Positions 5,598-18,101 of a stretch of 25,033 nt of DNA are shown here, in pieces; positions within the stretch are counted from its first letter, which is position 1, and each line of letters opens with the position of its first letter. The DNA comes from a virus. Below the pieces are notes generated by a model, which saw only the letters and a program-made list of their open reading frames with translations, searched no databases and was not told the origin of the DNA. The position numbers were made by a program, and so were the translations under genes. The stretch lies in IMG/VR virus record IMGVR_UViG_3300048033_001398, positions 1 to 25,033 of that record; one strand, 5' to 3'.

Positions 5598-6026
5598 ATG
5601 TCATACGTTTTACCAAAAAGAATAGTAAAGGATACAGATTCGGAGTTTGATAACTATGCGTACGGATTTCAGTATCCTACAAATGGTGGTACTTTATTTG
5701 AACCAACGTATGATTCATTTGAACAAGCTAGAACAAATCTTCGTAATTTATTATTGACACGAAAGGGTGAAAGAATAATGCAACCAGATTTTGGAACAGG
5801 TCTACATGAACTTTTATTTGAACCAATGGATACTGAGTATGAGCAACAGATACAAAATGCAATTATAACATCAGTAGGTTATTGGCTACCTTATATCACA
5901 ATAGATACAATTGATGTAGAAATGACAGATGAAATGAAAGATAGAAATCGTGCTGGTATGAATATAAAATTTAGAGTTGGTGAAACAATTGACACAAACG
6001 AAATAACGTTTACGGTACAGGGGTAA
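5598..6026 (+). CDS. 25: Baseplate wedge protein, gp25-like (GPW/gp25 family)
   Basis: The 142-residue length fits T4 gp25 and P2 gpW relatives. The family core is clear at about residues 43-100: RTNLRNLLLTRKGERIMQPD, then FGTGLHELLFEP (the conserved F-G-x-x-L-x-x-x-L-F-E-P block) and a region with LPYITIDTIDVEM. In contractile tails this protein sits at the inner baseplate, links the wedges and resembles sheath subunits, priming sheath assembly. GGAG upstream (5586-5589) supports the ATG. It is followed 6 bases later by the gp6-like gene, the usual gp25-gp6 order of myovirus baseplate operons. Confidence 0.93.
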   Translation: MSYVLPKRIVKDTDSEFDNYAYGFQYPTNGGTLFEPTYDSFEQARTNLRNLLLTRKGERIMQPDFGTGLHELLFEPMDTEYEQQIQNAIITSVGYWLPYITIDTIDVEMTDEMKDRNRAGMNIKFRVGETIDTNEITFTVQG

Positions 6027-6032
6027 TAGAAT

Positions 6033-8075
6033 ATGGCATTAAATACATCAGATAAAAAAAATAAAGGAAGAAGTATTCAGTACTTGAATAAAGATTTTGG
6101 TCAATTTAGAGAAAATCTAATTGAATACGCCAAAACATATTTCCCTACAACTTATTCAGATTTTAACGAATCATCACCAGGTATGATGTTTATCGAAATG
6201 GCATCCTACTTAGGAGATGTTCTTGGATACTACATCGATGATACCTTAAAAGAATCAATGATTCATTCTGCAGAAGATAGAAGTAATGTTGTTGCTCTTG
6301 CAAACTTCTTGGGATATAAACCAAAAGTTACTTCACCTGCACTTACTAAAATAGCGGTTTATCAAATATCACCAAGTAAAAGAAAAGCAAGTGGAAACTT
6401 GTATGATGGTGATAATAGATTTGAAATAGATGAAGGATATCTTTTAAGAATTAAAGAAGGTCTACAAATGGAATCTTCTAATGGTATAACATTTAGAACT
6501 ACCGAACTTTTAGATTTTAGTGATACCGAAGATAGAGAAATAACTGTTTACGAAAGAAATTCAAATCAAGAACCAACATTTTATTTGGTTAGAAAGTTTG
6601 TAAACGCAATCTCAGCTGAAGTAAAAGAAGTAAGTGTAAACTTTGGGTCACCAAAACAGTTTGATAAAATTGATTTATCAGATACTAATATAATTTCTAT
6701 TTACGATGTTCGTGATTCTAATGGAAACAAGTGGTATGAAGTTCCTTATCTTGCACAAGAAATGATTTATACTGATTATCCAAATACAGACCAATTTGAT
6801 AAAGATTTATCTCAATTCAAAGAATCTGTACCCAGTATTTTGAGAGTAACAAAAACATCAAGAAGATTTGTAAGACAAGTAAATGAAGATAATACAACAT
6901 CTATTGTATTTGGAGCAGGTAATTCTACATCTTCTGATGAAACATTCTTACCAAATTTTAAAAATGTAGGATTGGGATTAAATAACTCTATCGATAGATT
7001 AGGTGCTTCATTTGACCCTGCTAACTTTTTAAAGTCAAAATCATATGGTCAGGCACCATCGAATACAACTTTAACAATTAAGTATTTAGTTGGCGGTGGT
7101 GTTCCATCGAACGTACCAAAGGGAGAAATAAAAAGAATAACATCTATTGAGTTTGACGAGGATTTAAGTTTATTTGATGCAGATGAACTACAGATGTATG
7201 GTACTGTTAAAAATTCAGTAGCAGGAGAAAACGAAATTCCTGCTAGTGGTGGTAGAGGAGCAGAAACAATCAATGAGATTAGAGAAAATGCGTTAGCTCA
7301 TTATGGTTCTCAAAATAGAGCAGTTACTCGTAAGGATTACCAAGTAAGAGCTTTAGCATTACCAGGAAAATATGGAGGAGTTGCAAAGGCATATTGTGCA
7401 CCAGATGGTGAATTAGATAATAACTCACCTGGTTCTATTTTGAATAATCCAGATACATTAGAAGAGTTTGCTGGAATTGTTCAAAGAATTTCTAAAGAAG
7501 GAAAAACTGAAACTGAAATAAAAACAGAATTACAAAGATTCTTGGTTGGTAAACAATCTAATTCAAATTCAGTTGAAAAAAATAATCCATTCGCTGTAAA
7601 TTTATATTTACTTGGATATGATTCTAATAAAAATTTATCTTCGATAAACAAAGCAGTAAAAGAAAATGTTAAAACATATCTATCAGAATATAGAATGTTA
7701 ACTGATGGTGTTAACTTATTAGATGGATTTGTTATTAATATTGGAGTTGATTTTGAAATAATGACATATAACTCTTATAACAAAAGAGAAGTTCTTTTAC
7801 AATGTATCACCGAGGTTGAAAAATACTTTAACATAGATGATTGGACATTTAATACACCAATAAATGTTTCTGAATTAGAGTTAATTATCGCAGGTGTGGA
7901 GGGAGTTTTATCTGTACCAAAATGTAATATAGTAAATAAATGTGGTGGTGTATACTCTAAACACAAATATAATATTGAATCAGCAACTAAAGGAAAGATG
8001 GTTTATCCATCACTTGACCCATCGGTATTTGAATTAAAATATCCTGGTAAGGATATAAAAGGGAGAATTGTATAA
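6033..8075 (+). CDS. 6: Baseplate wedge protein, gp6/J-like
   Basis: A 680-residue protein matching the T4 gp6 / baseplate J family in size and N-terminus. Residues 17-100 contain YLNKDFGQFRENLIEYAKTY, SSPGMMFIEMASYLGDVLGY and VVALANFLGYKPK, the characteristic start of gp6 relatives. About residues 418-450 carry ENALAHYGSQNRAVTRKDYQ, the conserved block before the J-like core. In the tail it forms dimers that make the inner ring of the baseplate and hold gp25 and its neighbours. It starts 6 bases after the gp25-like gene and ends in a TAATG overlap with the next gene, so the three are translationally coupled. No anomaly is visible. Confidence 0.93.
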   Translation: MALNTSDKKNKGRSIQYLNKDFGQFRENLIEYAKTYFPTTYSDFNESSPGMMFIEMASYLGDVLGYYIDDTLKESMIHSAEDRSNVVALANFLGYKPKVTSPALTKIAVYQISPSKRKASGNLYDGDNRFEIDEGYLLRIKEGLQMESSNGITFRTTELLDFSDTEDREITVYERNSNQEPTFYLVRKFVNAISAEVKEVSVNFGSPKQFDKIDLSDTNIISIYDVRDSNGNKWYEVPYLAQEMIYTDYPNTDQFDKDLSQFKESVPSILRVTKTSRRFVRQVNEDNTTSIVFGAGNSTSSDETFLPNFKNVGLGLNNSIDRLGASFDPANFLKSKSYGQAPSNTTLTIKYLVGGGVPSNVPKGEIKRITSIEFDEDLSLFDADELQMYGTVKNSVAGENEIPASGGRGAETINEIRENALAHYGSQNRAVTRKDYQVRALALPGKYGGVAKAYCAPDGELDNNSPGSILNNPDTLEEFAGIVQRISKEGKTETEIKTELQRFLVGKQSNSNSVEKNNPFAVNLYLLGYDSNKNLSSINKAVKENVKTYLSEYRMLTDGVNLLDGFVINIGVDFEIMTYNSYNKREVLLQCITEVEKYFNIDDWTFNTPINVSELELIIAGVEGVLSVPKCNIVNKCGGVYSKHKYNIESATKGKMVYPSLDPSVFELKYPGKDIKGRIV

Positions 8076-10435: not shown

Positions 10436-12736
10436 ATGGCAATAAAGACATTTAAAGATATAGAACAAAAGAAAGGATATCGAGTAGAAAAGAAAGATAG
10501 AGAAATCTTCGAGCGCGAAGTTCGTAGAGGTATCTTTGGTATCGATAGTGGTGATATTATTGAATTTGTTTTATATGATTCATCTGATAATCCATTACCA
10601 CAAGAAGCCGCCAATGGTAAAACCGTTCGTTACATCTATTATACTAATGAGAATATACAAAAATATTTTAGTAAAGTAAATGAAACAAAATTTAATATCA
10701 AACGAAATGGTGCAGAAGAATTTTTTGTAGATGTTGAAAAACTAATTAAAGAAGCGGGATATTCACAAGGAATATTCAAAACATCAGTATCTCTTTTAAA
10801 TAGAAGATTAGGTTCAGAAGAAAGAAAATTTGATAAGGCATGGATACATGAGATTTCTCCATCAAGAACAGAGGTAAGAGTTTTACCAGTAATAGATGAA
10901 GCAACTGGTAATCCTAATTCTGATTTACAAACACGATATGATACTTTTACAAGTGGTAAAGATTTTGCTGCAGATGTTATTCTTTTTTTAGATGAGTTTG
11001 CTGCACAGTTTGATGTTGAAGATATTCTTAAAAAAATGTTAAGTTTAAGAGGTAAAGTTGCGGATGGTCAAGGGTATATAAAACTTATTGAAACTGAATT
11101 TAAAATTGATAATTTTGAAAAATGGTTATCTTTGGTAAAAATATCTTTTGATAAATCATTAGACCATTATAGAAATAACAGATTTGCAAACATTTTAGAA
11201 CAAAGTAAATTTGGTCAACCAACTGGGGAGTCTTTTGGTGTTAATTTTGATTCTAGGGGAATTGTTCAACAACTTTGTGATATTGCTGAAAATTGTGTAA
11301 ATTATCATTTACCAAATCAAGACATTAGACGAGAAACACTTCGTTCAAGAACACAATCAAAAACTTTAGATAAAGTAAAACAAATTCTAAAAACAGTAGA
11401 ATCAGATGGTGAATTTTTAGCAGAAGCACCAACTGAAAAGAAACCTGCGGTTAGAGGATGTAGAGACCCTAAAGCTAAGAACTATAATCCTGCAGCAACT
11501 GTTGATGATGTGTGTAATTATGAGGTAACTGTGACTAAGTATAAGAAAATACCTATTCCTCCACCTCCTCCACCTCCACCACCACCACCACCACCAAATC
11601 CTAGTCCAAGGCCAAGGCCAAATCCATCCCCTACTCCATCAGGTGGATATACTTTAAGTGTATCTTCACCAAATGTATCGAGAAGTAAAAGTGGTTCACC
11701 AAGTAGTGTATCTCACTATATTGCAGTTAAAAAAGGTGGTAAAAATCCACCTGCGGTTTATAGAAAACAAATGGGTTGGAAGGTATCTGGTATCCCAAGT
11801 TGGGTAACCTCGGTATCAAATTCATCCAATGATGATTGGAGTGGAACATTCAGATATAAAATGACAAGTAATTCGGGTGCTGCAAGGAGTGTAACAATGA
11901 CGGTTACTGGTACTGGTAAAGCAGCAGGAGCATCTGCAACTATAACTCTTTCTCAAGCTGGTGAATCTGCTAGTCCAAAACCAAAACCAAAACCACCAAC
12001 CAATCCAGCTCGTGGTACTATCATAAAAGATATTTGTGTAGGGACTACTCGTAAAATTGGATATGCAGATGGTAATGGTGGATTGCAACCACCTGTTTTG
12101 GAAAAGAATTCCCCTAAGTGTGGATATACTGCACCAAAACCACCACCACCACCACCTCCAGCTGGACCAACAGGAGGAAGAGGCGGATGTCTCGTTGGTA
12201 ATACTATGGTTGAATTATCTTCTGGTAAACAGATTCCAATTAAAGATATTAAAATTGGAGATAAACTTTTAGGGTTAGATATTAAAACACTTTCACCTTG
12301 GAATGAAGTTGAAGATAACTGGAGAGGTAAGGATATTGAACAATATGAAACTACTTCTTATAAGGTAATAGATTCAATGATAATTTCAGATGCAGAAGTT
12401 TATTCAATTAATGATGGATTGTTAGAATGTAGTGAGGACCATAAACACCTCGTTCGTAGAGGAGATGAATGGATGATTAGAACTACTATACAACTCAATA
12501 CTGGTGATGTTTATTTAGATATAGATAAAAATGAAATTTTAATTAATAATATAAGTTGGGATAGAAATGAAGATGTTTATCTTATTACATTAAATGGAAA
12601 ACATACATACTACGCAAATGGTATATTAACTCACAATGCTAAAGGAGGTAATAGAATCTATGAAGTAGTTGACCAATCACCAGGACAAGGTGCTAACAAC
12701 GATACTAAATTCATAAGTCCAAGTAGAGAGCGATAA
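10436..12736 (+). CDS. Mosaic baseplate/fibre protein with BACON-like and C-terminal Hint (intein-like) domains
   Basis: A 766-residue mosaic. Residues 1-335 look like a conserved virion anchor (VSLLNRRLGS...IHEISPSRTEVRVLP). Residues 340-362 hold a cysteine module, GCRDPKAKNYNPAA...VC (C342, C360), typical of Bacteroidetes surface proteins. Thirteen prolines (375-387) and an SPRPRPNP linker follow. Residues 405-509 resemble a BACON domain (GWKVSGIPSWVTSVS at 447-461, final ATITLSQAG). Residues 522-565 are a second two-cysteine module (C534, C562; YADGNGG, NSPKCGY), followed by another proline run. Residues 585-734 are a Hint domain beginning CLVGNTMVELSSGKQIPIKD and ending THN before A735, leaving a 32-residue tail. 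The protein probably sits on the outer baseplate and displays glycan-binding modules; the Hint domain suggests self-cleavage. The family of the N-terminal part is inferred. Confidence 0.85.
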   Translation: MAIKTFKDIEQKKGYRVEKKDREIFEREVRRGIFGIDSGDIIEFVLYDSSDNPLPQEAANGKTVRYIYYTNENIQKYFSKVNETKFNIKRNGAEEFFVDVEKLIKEAGYSQGIFKTSVSLLNRRLGSEERKFDKAWIHEISPSRTEVRVLPVIDEATGNPNSDLQTRYDTFTSGKDFAADVILFLDEFAAQFDVEDILKKMLSLRGKVADGQGYIKLIETEFKIDNFEKWLSLVKISFDKSLDHYRNNRFANILEQSKFGQPTGESFGVNFDSRGIVQQLCDIAENCVNYHLPNQDIRRETLRSRTQSKTLDKVKQILKTVESDGEFLAEAPTEKKPAVRGCRDPKAKNYNPAATVDDVCNYEVTVTKYKKIPIPPPPPPPPPPPPPNPSPRPRPNPSPTPSGGYTLSVSSPNVSRSKSGSPSSVSHYIAVKKGGKNPPAVYRKQMGWKVSGIPSWVTSVSNSSNDDWSGTFRYKMTSNSGAARSVTMTVTGTGKAAGASATITLSQAGESASPKPKPKPPTNPARGTIIKDICVGTTRKIGYADGNGGLQPPVLEKNSPKCGYTAPKPPPPPPPAGPTGGRGGCLVGNTMVELSSGKQIPIKDIKIGDKLLGLDIKTLSPWNEVEDNWRGKDIEQYETTSYKVIDSMIISDAEVYSINDGLLECSEDHKHLVRRGDEWMIRTTIQLNTGDVYLDIDKNEILINNISWDRNEDVYLITLNGKHTYYANGILTHNAKGGNRIYEVVDQSPGQGANNDTKFISPSRER
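11558..11596 (+). repeat. CCA/CCT microsatellite encoding 13 prolines
   Basis: Thirteen consecutive proline codons (CCT or CCA) form a trinucleotide repeat inside the 766-residue protein. A shorter proline run is encoded near 12135-12160. Such tracts can change length by slippage, and polyproline usually needs EF-P for efficient translation. They act here as stiff linkers between domains. Confidence 0.85.
12188..12637 (+). other. Hint / bacterial intein-like (BIL) domain coding segment
   Basis: Encodes residues 585-734 (150 residues) of the 10436 gene. The first residue is Cys in GGRGG|CLVGNTMVEL, followed by IPIKDIKIGDKLLGL (block A). LECSEDHKHLV fits block B, with Ser in place of the usual Thr of TxxH. 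The end, VYLITLNGKHTYYANGILTH plus N, fits blocks F and G with the terminal His-Asn. The next residue is Ala rather than Cys, Ser or Thr, so canonical splicing chemistry is not expected, but cleavage at either end is. There is no homing-endonuclease insert at this length. Confidence 0.9.
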
Positions 12737-12788: not shown

Positions 12789-15700
12789 ATGGCAATTATT
12801 GATGAATATGGCAATGGGTTAGGGTTCGGAGATGGTCCTCAGAAACGAAGTGGATTCGGTGCCAATGATTTCGGTGAGCCATTAGACTTCAATGGAGTCG
12901 ATGAGTTGCGTCTGGACCCCAAGGAGTTGGTCGGAAATACTGGAACTGCAACTGGTACTGGAAGTGGTATTAGTGTTAACGGAAGACCAACTAGAAATGG
13001 TACGAGAATTGGAGAAGTAGTTGGTTTTTACCGATGGAATGGTTCCATGTGGATAGATAATCGTGTTACTTCTTCTAATAACGGAAATAATGGGTTACCT
13101 TATGTTGGTGATTTGGGAATAGGTGATTTATCTGGTTTTGGTGATTTTAAAATTGATATAGATGATATAAAGATTGATATTGATATTCCTCCAATCGAAC
13201 CAATTAATCTTCCATTTAAAATACATTTTACATCAAATCCATCTCACAAAAAAGGATATCAATTTACAGATACAGGAGCTCCTATTACTCCTGGTTCTCA
13301 GTTATATCCAAAGGATTTATTAAGTGGTAGAACCATTGGTGCAAAAGATAATGGTAAAGCCAATGAGGTATATAGTGTTAAAACTCGTGTTGTAAATAAA
13401 GGATTATTTGACCAATATGTTATTGATTTTACATTAAATGGTAGTCTATATAAATCAATAGATAGTAATCTTTATGCAGCTGTAACGTTACCTTTTACTT
13501 GGAAAGTAGAGGAAGTACCTGAACCAACACCTCCACCAACTGATGTAACAGTTGATATTCAACATGATATGGCAAGTGGTGTTTCTGCGGTATTAACACT
13601 ACAAGGAAAAACAGTAACATTTAGTGGAACTGGAACAAGTTCTATAACTAATTCTTCGGGTCCGTATCTTAGCATAACTCCAACAAGTAATTCTTCATAT
13701 AATCATTTATATACTTTATACGAAGATGCTAGTGGTAAAAAGGTTTTTGAGGCATCTCAACCAACTTTTACATATACCAAACTACAAAATGGTTTAAAAT
13801 ATAAGTTAAAGGTTGGTATTTCAAAAGGAGAAATCCCTGCAGACCCACCTGCAGACCCACAACCAGATAACACACCAAGATACAGATATGAAAAATATAC
13901 TGTAACTGAAAAAAGAACAACAGGAGAATCCGCTCCTTCTTATACAAAACCTATATTAACTTTAACAGATGGAGATTTTGTTACATTTAATATTGGAGAA
14001 GGTGGAGATGAATTTATTGATGTACCATTTACAACTCAAAATGCTGACTGGGTAAATATAAAAACAAAAGGTAAGTTTAAAAAAAATAGTTACAATAATA
14101 AAGCAAGATTGTCAGCCGATGATTTTGATGCACCAGGTGCGTATCAAATTTGGCTACAACCAGATTCTAATATAAATGGTACTGGTGAAGCAAAAGCAAT
14201 TGCAGTACAAGTTATTTCAAAAGATTTTTTACCTGGACCTGACATAACATTAATTGATTTTCCAGAGACAATTGTTGGTGAAGATTATAAAGGATATAAT
14301 ATAGATTTTGGAGTTAACTGGGAATCTATTAATACTAACTATATTGATATCTACATAGGTAAAGTATCCAAAACAACTCGTATATTAAAAGGAGGACCTG
14401 CAATGGGTTCTCAGCAATTTAATATTGGTAAAATATTAAAACAAGCCGGTGAATCATTAAATGAATCACGAGATTGGGTTTATTTTGATTTATATTTTAT
14501 TCCTTATAATGAAGAAGGAGATGAGTTAACGGCAGGTAGAACCGAGTCTATTAAAATTGCATTCGATAAGGGAAATGTGTTACTTACTAGACCAGAAGTA
14601 ATGAGAGATATAACCGATTCAATTTGTAATCAATTTGATTCAGATGCTCTTGGTAAAGATAATTCTAAATACTTAACTCACTTAATGCACTTTGGTGATG
14701 GTGATAATAAACTAATTGCAACGTGGTGTACTGATTATGAAGAATTTTCTCAATATGAAGATGTAGTTCAAAAAGTTGCAAATGATGAAGGTGAGTATGT
14801 AGACCAAATAGTTCGTAAGAAAACTAGAGAAGAAGAAACTTTAGTATTTAAAATGTATGAACCACTTCCAAGAAGTGTTCAACCAAATCAACAAATTTGG
14901 GTTTCTAAAATACAATCTATTCCAATCATTGAGCAAGTAACTCTTATCAATGAAGATTTAAAAGAATGTATAGAGCTAACACCGGATTTTGGACAAAATT
15001 TATGTGGTGAGAATATTGGATTCCAATTATATGATGATATCATATCAAGTGGTTCAGCATCATCTACCTCCGTATTAAGTGAATTTGTTAGTGGTAGTGG
15101 ATTTGATTTAAAAACATTACAGATACCATTTGCAAGTTCATCTAAAGAAATTGAAGGTTCTTTATTAGTTGATTCCGATTCTACTTGGGGATGGAATAAT
15201 TTTGTAAAATACTCATCTGCAGAAGAAAGAGTAAATAACTTTTTATACAAAATAAAATTAATGGAGTTCTATGATACCAAAATAGAACAACTCGAATCTG
15301 GTTCTTACTATACTGGTTCTGCTGGTATGATAAAGGAAATACAAACAAATACTGAAAATATTCAAAAGGTTAAAGATAATTTTGATGCATTCGAATCATT
15401 CTTATATACCTCATCATCTTTAAGTGGATTAACATATCCAGGTGCTGGACAAAATGAAGTATCACATTCAACTGATAGTGATTCAGTAAGTTGGTATTCT
15501 TCAATTATTGATTCTGCACAACATTACGATTACTACAATAAAGATTTATTAGTAAATAATTTACCTAATCACGTTAGAACTTCGGAAGATTCTGAACAAT
15601 TCAAAATGTTCTTCCATATGATGGGTAACCATTTTGATGTACTTTGGTCTTATACAAAGGCATTAGCAGAAACTAAAAATTTAGAACATAAGTATGAACT

Positions 15701-18101
15701 TGGTATTAAAGATACCTTAGTATCATCTATGTTAAAATCCATGGGTTGGGATGCTAAAATGGGTAAAAAAGCCCAAGCTCTTTGGGAATTTGCTTTTGGA
15801 GAAAATTCAGATGGTACATCTACTTCTTCAATGACTGGAAAAGAAAGACAACAAGAAGTTTGGAGAAGATTACTTAACAATTTACCATACCTAATGAAAC
15901 ACAAAGGTAGTGGTAGGGCAGTAAAAGCTGCACTTGCTTGTTATGGTGTACCTTCTTCTATGTTAACAGTATTGGAATTTGGTGGACCAAGAAATAGTGA
16001 TGGTGGTACTTCTAAAATATCATTCGAAGATAGAACGGCTGCTATTAATATTAGTGGTTCTAATTCTATTATAGTACCATGGAAGGAATATACTGAAACA
16101 TTAGACCACCCACAATCAGTTGAGATTCGAGTTAACTCTGAGGTTAAACAAAACCAAACTTTTATTTCATCGAGTGGATGGAATGTTGGTGTAAAATATT
16201 CTGATGTAGGTAATAGAGGTAGTATTGAATTCCAATATTTAAGTGGCTCTACAATAGTATCACAATCAACAGATTTGATGCCATTCTTTAATGATGAGTA
16301 TACTCAAATTGTAGTTCAACATCTTGCAACTGGTTCTTTTGAAGTTTATGCAAAAGAAGGATTTAATGAAAGAATCAGAAATGCGGTTTCAATGTCTGTT
16401 AAGAATGTACCAACCTCATCTTGGGAATTGGATACTAAATTAACTATTGGTAGTTCTACTATGAGTGGTTCTGTTGATGAATTTAGATATTGGACAACTG
16501 CATTATCAGAATCAAGAATAGATAATCACACCTTATTACCAGATGCAATTGATGGTAACCATCACTCATCTTCTACTGAAGATTTGATTCTTCGTTTGGA
16601 TTTTGAATATCCAAAGGATAGAAGTTCAAGTGGTGATACTGCTATTAAAAATGTATCAATAAACGAATCATATGATGTTGATTTTGTAACCGCATCTAAT
16701 TTTGATTCTATAACAGAGTATCCATATCATTATACAACTTATGAAAGAACTGTAACAGCAAATGTTCCTTCAAGTGGATTTGGTGTTGGTAATAAGTTTA
16801 GATTTGAATCACAACAATCAATTAACCCAACAGAAGATATTGATGGTACTGGTCTCACTCTTTCTTATAGAGAACGTTCTACTAAGAAATCATTTGATAC
16901 ATCACCAATCGATTCAAATAGATTAGGATTATTCTTCTCACCAATAAAAGAGATAAACATGGATATGTTAAAATCTCTTGGACAGTTTGAATTAGATGAT
17001 TATATTGGTGACCCTAATGATAGATATTCTGATGAGTATAGAGATTTAAGATTATTAAGAAATTACTATTTCGAAAGATACACTATAAATCTATATGAAT
17101 ATATTCAGTTGGTAAGATATATAGACCAATCTTTATTTGAAACATTGGAATCTCTTGTACCTGCAAGAGCAATTGTATCGAGTGGATTATTGATTGAACC
17201 ACACTTGTTAGAAAGAAACAAAGTAAAACATAGACCTTTACAGGCAGAAGATTTACTTCGTAATATAAAAGAACCTAAAATTGATTTAAGAGAACAAGTT
17301 AAAATTAAACCTGAAAATATTAAAAGATATGATAAGAGTTTAAAACCATTTGATAGATTTAAATTTGATGTTGATGCTAAGAAAATACGAGATGGTAGGT
17401 TACAGAGAATACAACCTAGAATTAGATATAGTAGACCAAATTACAATGCGTCTATTAGAAGTGTAGGACCGGCTTTTATTTCTTCCACCAGTTTATCGGA
17501 AGGTAAAATCACAGATACTCAATTTATACAAAGATTACTCAAACAACAAGAGGCTCTAGGTGGTCAATCACAAGTAGGTGTTGACCCAAGGAATCTTCGT
17601 AATGGACTTGCTGGTGTTTTTGCAAAAAATGGTATTGCAAATGTTACTCGTTTAGATGGAAATGGTACTTTAATTAAAGAAAGAAAACAAGTTTGGATTG
17701 TAACAGAAGAATATACTGAAATAGAAAAACAAGCAATTCCAGGTACTGGTCAAAAAACTACAGATGGTAAAAGGTGGTTAAAAGAACCATTATATAGAGA
17801 TGTGGTGGTAACTAAAACAAGAAAAGTAGTAGTATTTAATGAAATAGGAGACCCTGCACCAAGTGGAGATAATATATTATCTGCAGTTGCTGCTAACTCG
17901 AATGGTGGTAAATTACCTGGTGGAAATCTTGGTAATAAATACGGAAATAGAGGTTTTCGCTCTCCATCAAGACAAACATCGAGAACAACGTTGGATAGAA
18001 AATCTCCAGTAGAAACTTTCTGTACGAATCCTAACATTCTTAAAGTTTCAGATACTGCAAGAGGAAAAGGTGAACCAATTTTAGAGGTTAATAAAAAATA
18101 A
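12789..18101 (+). CDS. Giant virion structural protein with gpI-like and LamG-like segments
   Basis: A 1770-residue protein, probably a large outer wedge or fibre-network component in the place of T4 gp7. Residues 1-90 are Gly-rich with repeated GFG/DFG, and their DNA is much GC-richer than the rest. Residues about 150-600 are several beta-rich domains with P/D linkers (a 12-bp tandem repeat encodes PADPPADP). Residues about 780-960 are helical. About 940-1070 resemble the P2 gpI family: FFHMMGNHFDVLWSYTKALA, MLKSMGWDAKMG, and NLPYLMKHKGSGRAVKAALA followed by CYGVP. About 1078-1270 look LamG/concanavalin-like (MSGSVDEFRYWTTALSESRI). About 1417-1477 are a conserved-looking helical block (YFERYTINLYEYIQLVRYID). 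The C-terminal 250 residues are basic and disordered-looking. There is no internal stop or frameshift. The domain calls rest on motif resemblance only. Confidence 0.85.
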   Translation: MAIIDEYGNGLGFGDGPQKRSGFGANDFGEPLDFNGVDELRLDPKELVGNTGTATGTGSGISVNGRPTRNGTRIGEVVGFYRWNGSMWIDNRVTSSNNGNNGLPYVGDLGIGDLSGFGDFKIDIDDIKIDIDIPPIEPINLPFKIHFTSNPSHKKGYQFTDTGAPITPGSQLYPKDLLSGRTIGAKDNGKANEVYSVKTRVVNKGLFDQYVIDFTLNGSLYKSIDSNLYAAVTLPFTWKVEEVPEPTPPPTDVTVDIQHDMASGVSAVLTLQGKTVTFSGTGTSSITNSSGPYLSITPTSNSSYNHLYTLYEDASGKKVFEASQPTFTYTKLQNGLKYKLKVGISKGEIPADPPADPQPDNTPRYRYEKYTVTEKRTTGESAPSYTKPILTLTDGDFVTFNIGEGGDEFIDVPFTTQNADWVNIKTKGKFKKNSYNNKARLSADDFDAPGAYQIWLQPDSNINGTGEAKAIAVQVISKDFLPGPDITLIDFPETIVGEDYKGYNIDFGVNWESINTNYIDIYIGKVSKTTRILKGGPAMGSQQFNIGKILKQAGESLNESRDWVYFDLYFIPYNEEGDELTAGRTESIKIAFDKGNVLLTRPEVMRDITDSICNQFDSDALGKDNSKYLTHLMHFGDGDNKLIATWCTDYEEFSQYEDVVQKVANDEGEYVDQIVRKKTREEETLVFKMYEPLPRSVQPNQQIWVSKIQSIPIIEQVTLINEDLKECIELTPDFGQNLCGENIGFQLYDDIISSGSASSTSVLSEFVSGSGFDLKTLQIPFASSSKEIEGSLLVDSDSTWGWNNFVKYSSAEERVNNFLYKIKLMEFYDTKIEQLESGSYYTGSAGMIKEIQTNTENIQKVKDNFDAFESFLYTSSSLSGLTYPGAGQNEVSHSTDSDSVSWYSSIIDSAQHYDYYNKDLLVNNLPNHVRTSEDSEQFKMFFHMMGNHFDVLWSYTKALAETKNLEHKYELGIKDTLVSSMLKSMGWDAKMGKKAQALWEFAFGENSDGTSTSSMTGKERQQEVWRRLLNNLPYLMKHKGSGRAVKAALACYGVPSSMLTVLEFGGPRNSDGGTSKISFEDRTAAINISGSNSIIVPWKEYTETLDHPQSVEIRVNSEVKQNQTFISSSGWNVGVKYSDVGNRGSIEFQYLSGSTIVSQSTDLMPFFNDEYTQIVVQHLATGSFEVYAKEGFNERIRNAVSMSVKNVPTSSWELDTKLTIGSSTMSGSVDEFRYWTTALSESRIDNHTLLPDAIDGNHHSSSTEDLILRLDFEYPKDRSSSGDTAIKNVSINESYDVDFVTASNFDSITEYPYHYTTYERTVTANVPSSGFGVGNKFRFESQQSINPTEDIDGTGLTLSYRERSTKKSFDTSPIDSNRLGLFFSPIKEINMDMLKSLGQFELDDYIGDPNDRYSDEYRDLRLLRNYYFERYTINLYEYIQLVRYIDQSLFETLESLVPARAIVSSGLLIEPHLLERNKVKHRPLQAEDLLRNIKEPKIDLREQVKIKPENIKRYDKSLKPFDRFKFDVDAKKIRDGRLQRIQPRIRYSRPNYNASIRSVGPAFISSTSLSEGKITDTQFIQRLLKQQEALGGQSQVGVDPRNLRNGLAGVFAKNGIANVTRLDGNGTLIKERKQVWIVTEEYTEIEKQAIPGTGQKTTDGKRWLKEPLYRDVVVTKTRKVVVFNEIGDPAPSGDNILSAVAANSNGGKLPGGNLGNKYGNRGFRSPSRQTSRTTLDRKSPVETFCTNPNILKVSDTARGKGEPILEVNKK
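13836..13859 (+). repeat. Two perfect tandem copies of a 12-bp unit
   Basis: CCTGCAGACCCA occurs twice head to tail and encodes the linker PADPPADP in the giant protein. It is a small in-frame duplication between beta-domains. Confidence 0.9.

Follow-up and report, generated by a model that had tools for sequence, protein, structure and literature searches.

What does an intein-like Hint domain do at the end of a phage tail-region protein, where only a short tail follows it? The question is raised by a 25,033-bp stretch of DNA, called the window here, which is a complete IMG/VR record of an uncultured, marine-type phage. On its plus strand, where all window genes and features with strand given below lie, it carries a gene for a 766-aa protein (10436..12736) that a preliminary description had taken for a baseplate or fibre protein with a self-cleaving Hint domain of the bacterial intein-like (BIL) type. 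Judging from the catalytic residues and their conservation, we think that this tail protein probably matures by autoprocessing at the Gly584/Cys585 junction, with C-terminal release by Asn734.

Layout and surroundings of the Hint-bearing protein

The protein is composed of an N-terminal domain, a Cys-rich repeat, proline-rich linkers, a BACON module, the Hint domain and a short tail. The conserved N-terminal domain (residues 1-335, 10436..11440) defines the family; it is present in 17 viral contigs and gave zero matches at E≤1 among 50,697 GenBank phage records. It is followed by a GCxDxxAxNYNxxAxxxDxCxY repeat read from the sequence (residues 341-362, 11456..11521) and by the BACON module, a putative carbohydrate-binding unit (residues 448-508, 11777..11959), which scores E 3.3e-5 and 24.2 bits against a cut-off of 25 in the window protein and passes the cut-off in L013, L022, L024 and L029. 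In the relative L003 (4414-6531), three GCTDSxATNYxxxAxxxDxxCxY repeats occupy the place of BACON, a further sign of module exchange in the Hint-bearing protein.

The Hint domain itself spans residues 585-734 (150 aa, 12188..12637) and is preceded by the Gly-rich spacer GPTGGRGG (12164..12187), which leads up to the predicted N-terminal scissile bond. It opens with Cys585 (12188..12190), the block A nucleophile of position 1, carries the block B motif SEDH from Ser666 to His669 (12431..12442), and closes with blocks F and G, VYLITLNGKHTYYANGILTHN (residues 714-734, 12575..12637), ending in His733-Asn734 (12632-12637). Ala735 (12638-12640) then occupies the +1 position of a 32-aa tail (residues 735-766, 12638..12733), which has Lys736 at +2 and is not conserved beyond it. 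The boundaries and the Gly-rich scissile region are those that the preliminary description had given, and profile searches uphold its Hint assignment. The NCBIfam model TIGR01443 (intein_Cterm) scores 16.9 bits at residues 714-734, above its curated cut-off of 15.6, and passes also in L002, L004, L021 and L022; Pfam Hint (PF01079) matches residues 582-615 with E 0.0025, under its own cut-off, and Pfam Hom_end_hint matches the N-terminal block too, again below cut-off, so that two independent libraries each recognise one end of residues 585-734. With a profile built from eight relatives, the best match of solved structure was BIL2 of Tetrahymena (6tmm/6y75, E 5e-6), and the gp41-1 intein (E 0.0045) and the DnaB intein 4o1r (E 0.0095) were also matched. 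AlphaFold models of the Hint domain (8 rows, pLDDT 39) and of the N-terminal domain (13 rows, pLDDT 45) were too poor for use. Where many inteins have Asp in block F, the window Hint has Leu; the Asp seems to be replaced in gp41-1 too, so this residue is perhaps not always needed.

The surroundings of the gene point to the baseplate. Upstream lie a gp25-like baseplate wedge gene (5598..6026; PF04965, E 3.5e-15, and a PHROG baseplate wedge match) and a gp6-like one (6033..8075; PHROG baseplate wedge, E 3e-26), the product of the latter being 37-41% identical to its counterparts in Flavobacterium phage immuto and Microcystis phage Mel-JY01. The next gene downstream (12789..18101) encodes a large tail/baseplate-region protein of 1770 aa with a variable N-terminus. 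The order gp25, gp6, 354-aa gene, 1770-aa gene is recognisable in both of these phages, in which the gene for the Hint protein is absent. The earlier naming of a baseplate or fibre protein thus draws on this synteny and on BACON; judged by the neighbouring gene order, the protein is most likely baseplate-associated.

Two smaller observations concern other genes of the window. The 1770-aa protein has a short W-rich, hairpin-like motif near its start, GFYRWNGSMWIDN (window 12789-13100), which in the next gene of relatives reads WSEAIGDWID and WNGSNWYD; in L013 (8380-9153) a similar motif, GTLWIWDANDGVWMME, terminates the Hint-less protein instead, and the following gene lacks it, as though the module had crossed from one gene into the other. 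Elsewhere in the window lies a Nol-like carbamoyltransferase gene (3-1670, PHROG E 1e-109), which is cut by the window start.

Alleles, junction residues and cassette exchange

IMG/VR protein searches recovered the whole protein from further contigs and yielded eight distinct Hint-bearing alleles, those of the window and of L002, L003, L004, L018, L021, L022 and L024. The Hint domain is 150 aa long and without a homing endonuclease in every one, the residues for N- and C-terminal cleavage, including the terminal His-Asn, are kept throughout, in support of the preliminary description, and 60 of the 150 positions (40%) are invariant. Position -1 is Gly and position +2 is Lys in 8/8. Cys, Ser and Thr do not occur at +1, where the alleles have A, R, N, I, Y, Y, Y and F, in keeping with the BIL-type rather than intein-type C-terminal junction proposed before. 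Beyond +2 the tails cannot be aligned. Six of them measure 32, 35, 24, 23, 11 and 6 aa (the last in L021), and those of L022 and L024 are 84-85 aa long and contain an S74 endosialidase-chaperone domain (PF13884), above the Pfam cut-off in L024 (24.2 against 22) and below it in L022 (18.5); a Pfam search found no PF13884 at the C-terminus of the window protein. Being 6-35 aa long and unalignable, or else an S74 chaperone, the tail whose release was proposed earlier is not a conserved peptide. In L022 (8001-10496) and L024 (8001-10481) the Hint domain is followed directly by Peptidase_S74, placing two self-processing modules in series. L003 and L004 have GFNTSS-like tails, which resemble the stretch just before S74 in L022 and may be what is left of an S74 domain that was lost.

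The Hint domain is a terminal module and not an intein interrupting a protein. The close relative L013, whose N-terminal domain is 84% identical to that of the window, lacks it and has a different C-terminus, so the domain is dispensable; the more distant relatives L025-L030 also lack it, and the Hint-less relatives have no sequence in common with the tail. A canonical (class 1) intein was accordingly set aside: Ala735 stands at +1, none of the eight alleles has a nucleophile there, and the domain does not split a conserved site between two homologous exteins, only a variable tail following it. A Hedgehog Hog domain was rejected too, with only a 32-aa tail, no sterol-recognition region and a conserved terminal HN, and so was the release of a polymorphic toxin of the Pretoxin-HINT kind, because the tail, where it is not an S74 domain, has just 6-35 aa and is too short for it; the window protein had no PT-HINT match.

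How variable this part of the gene is can be read from L014 and L018. Since trees of the N-terminal domain and of the Hint domain were too weakly resolved for incongruence alone, we used the DNA identity profile of these two genomes. They are ~94% identical over flanks of 7.5 kb and 7.1 kb, and within the gene, codons 51-350 are at 99-100% identity; identity then falls across BACON and the linkers, is ~73% in the Hint domain, leaves the tail unalignable and returns to 91-97% or more directly 3' of the gene. The last 400 codons have been swapped as one unit between near-identical genomes. Together with the absence of the Hint domain from L013, this bears out the modular, variable host protein of the preliminary description. 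Synonymous divergence in the Hint domain is ~0.9 between L002 (on the same contig as L014) and L018, and pairwise dN/dS of the Hint domain is 0.16-0.39 across the family, with dS partly saturated. The cassette swap and these ratios taken together place the Hint domain in a hypervariable cassette and yet under purifying selection. Among the repeats of the window, none suggested a diversity-generating cassette for the gene.

A-type BIL domains were reportedly described by Amitai in 2003 and by Dassa in 2004. They have since been reviewed (PMC4031507, PMC7765530), and BIL domains are described as lying in hypervariable regions (PMC7765530). Like them, the window Hint has Cys1, the block B His, a terminal His-Asn, no Cys, Ser or Thr at +1, no endonuclease and a size of ~150 aa, and it lies in the hypervariable part of a non-conserved protein. 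Unlike the bacterial A-type domains, it sits C-terminally on a phage tail/baseplate-region protein with only 6-35 aa or an S74 domain behind it. Blocks A, B, F and G are recognised by sequence, the fold model having a pLDDT of only 39; by these blocks, the His-Asn end, the +1 residue, the size and the setting, the layout is that of an A-type BIL domain. The canonical phage mini-inteins gp41-1 and DnaB share the Hint blocks and the C-terminal splicing region with the window Hint, which differs from them in having no +1 nucleophile, no conserved site and no C-extein of known function.

Terminal Hint domains on other phage tail proteins

A weak match led to a 'putative tail protein' of Alcaligenes phage Afa-NA1, a collagen-repeat protein that ends HN/MDDSGYETKRKY (a slash marks a Hint boundary here and below). 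Its Hint domain matches 57 GenBank phage records, some of them RefSeq duplicates, and a search with the whole protein of Yoloswag gave 60 records, RefSeq duplicates included; in a few of these records, the JA29 group, the match lies wholly outside the Hint. The matched records are nearly all of jumbo phages of Erwinia and Dickeya, with Yersinia phage fHe-Yen9-02 in addition. Some 50 cultured phages, Alexandra, AD1 and Y3 among them, thus have collagen-like tail proteins with a terminal Hint domain, and the collagen-type ends among those read are HN/TDIVAKAEKK, HN/TDIVAQAEKT, HN/TDIVAKAEKL and HN/VDLVSKAEKN. Phage NCTB adds more examples, one of them a 'large intein domain protein' with the end HN/APVDQKH. 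These Alexandra-type proteins (Y3 gp110, AD1_108, Alexandra_114, Yoloswag_102 and NCTB SBV38305, with that of Afa-NA1) resemble the window protein in the terminal Hint, the usual Gly at -1, the same catalytic residues and, in those read, a tail of ~7-12 aa; they differ from it in their unrelated N-terminal parts and in the +1 residue, which is Thr in several and Val, Met or Ala in others. The layout is therefore not unique, being shared by tail proteins of cultured jumbo phages, and the depositors of Y3 and NCTB had already given a tail protein in each GenBank entry the remark 'contains intein domain', so that the presence of Hint domains there is not new.

Profile-profile comparison of the window Hint group with the collagen-type group gave E 1.6e-10. 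In an alignment of 13 Hint domains, drawn from four unrelated types of protein, seven positions were invariant (C585, G597, G608, H669, L731, H733 and N734) although the families share only ~20% identity. All four catalytic residues, C585, H669, H733 and N734, are among the seven; Hint autoprocessing needs them, and their invariance argues for activity. The collagen-type family also contains an orthologue without the Hint domain, JA29_099 of Dickeya phage JA29, which ends in ...TVRITARNPK. Its Hint-bearing orthologues read ...VVARNPVNTSTTG/C, and Y3 and Alexandra read ...VVARNPVNT..TG/CIVFG where JA29_099 stops. Ending a few residues before the predicted cut, JA29_099 corresponds almost exactly to the predicted N-cleaved product.

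Other Hint arrangements were met during these searches. The 641-aa protein of L011 (3169-5094) has a degenerate Hint-like segment with a QHN/P end and then an intact C-terminal Hint ending HN/KEVIEKFKPGFGA, with intein_Nterm and intein_Cterm both above cut-off. The tail region of NCTB has at least three Hint-type genes, one of which encodes a stand-alone 153-aa 'intein domain protein' (SBV38304.1; L053 4035-4496) that adjoins the Hint-bearing tail protein, is without a Cys1 start and ends HN/KVD. Genome contigs scanned with the Hint profile gave no relative. The plasmid matches were distant, being a polymerase or Hint domains of the RHS and pretoxin kinds; the Lak-phage matches, which by eye look like a piece of an intein within a UvsX/RecA-type gene, and those in SCTP-2 and Vibrio, ordinary inteins in RecA-like or helicase genes, were set aside.

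Autoprocessing and the competing readings

A baseplate-associated tail protein that ends in an A-type BIL-like Hint with a complete catalytic set would probably be processed as follows. After folding, Cys585 would attack the carbonyl of Gly584 in an N-S acyl shift, assisted by His669 of block B, and Asn734 would cyclise with the help of His733 and release the tail. The resulting thioester would be resolved mainly by water or an amine, so that the mature protein would end at or near Gly584, with BACON lying near its new C-terminus; a side product re-joined to the short tail might also arise, as reported for other A-type BILs. In this scheme we infer the activity itself, its timing during assembly, how the thioester ends and that the protein is located in the virion. 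For A-type BIL domains, an N-terminal thioester, C-terminal cleavage by Asn cyclisation and mainly cleavage products have been described (PMC4031507; PMC7664689). Those without a +1 nucleophile can nevertheless splice, the freed amine attacking the thioester, with cleavage dominating (PMC4031507). 'Cleavage only' is therefore not a safe conclusion from the BIL-type junction. Self-removal alone has no obvious benefit, which counts against the autoprocessing reading, as do the Leu in place of the block F Asp and the fact that experimental evidence of processing was found for neither the window protein nor any relative.

The Gly584 thioester might, in the manner of Tetrahymena BIL2, be transferred to Lys736 or to an amine of a neighbouring tail protein, forming an isopeptide cross-link in the baseplate. 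BIL2, the closest solved relative by profile, lies between ubiquitin-like domains of the ciliate protein BUBL1 and is reported to pass its acyl group to a lysine, in an isopeptide bond made without ATP (PMC8616854); a lysine acceptor of this type is only a possibility for the window Hint, and the Gly at -1 and the Lys at +2 in all eight alleles, the latter in an otherwise unalignable tail, would suit it. With 60 of 150 Hint positions invariant, however, one invariant flanking residue is weak evidence, the collagen-type family (T/V/M-D...) and NCTB (APVDQKH) have no Lys at +2, and JA29_099 manages without a Hint domain, so that such a cross-link is not essential there. We consider acyl transfer unlikely, and likewise its more specific form, in which the Hint domain would be a one-shot coupler passing the thioester of a receptor-binding tail module to a lysine, at +2 or in a neighbouring subunit, with no external enzyme. 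If it were true, exchangeable tail tips would be chemically welded into the baseplate.

The Hint domain might, on the other hand, be the degenerate relic of a once selfish mini-intein near the 3' end, self-removing or harmless, and the lack of a homing endonuclease, its terminal position and the Hint-less relatives in both families, in which the host protein works without it, are in line with that. But a single stop codon before Cys585 would delete it cheaply, and yet it persists, with catalytic residues intact in eight divergent alleles and ~50 jumbo-phage records, under purifying selection, and on host proteins that share no insertion-site sequence; we give such a relic a small chance. Full splicing, by which the released alpha-amine would attack the thioester and join the tail, or the S74 chaperone in L022 and L024, to the N-terminal part, is the route reported for A-type BILs lacking a +1 nucleophile (PMC4031507), and the strict conservation of HN even before the 6-aa tail of L021 suggests that C-terminal cleavage is selected. 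As the main outcome it appears quite improbable, since tails vary in length and kind and JA29_099 has none, giving no hint that a spliced tail is needed. A non-catalytic Hint fold acting as a folding or assembly cap would share its terminal position with intramolecular chaperones, and S74 does follow it in L022 and L024; that exactly the catalytic residues are invariant across families at ~20% identity makes this very improbable indeed.

Phage tail proteins mature by S74-type self-cleavage. The Peptidase_S74/endosialidase chaperone is likewise a C-terminal self-processing tail module, of another fold and another chemistry. Where phage Hint domains have been described, they are mostly inteins in genes for replication, packaging or nucleotide metabolism. 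A literature search of partial coverage turned up neither a paper in which an intein-like Hint is seen as a module for tail maturation or of BIL type, nor virion proteomics for AD1 or Y3. If the Hint domain works as autoprocessing would have it, the real C-terminus of these virion tail proteins would be made by Hint chemistry, and the annotated chain lengths would be wrong for ~50 GenBank phage records. Because tail proteins of ~50 cultured phages end alike, direct testing is possible, and the purpose of A-type BIL domains, a long-standing question, would become testable in cultured Hint-plus and Hint-minus phages. Protein ligation may be a further use for terminal Hint domains that have Gly at -1 and lack a +1 nucleophile.
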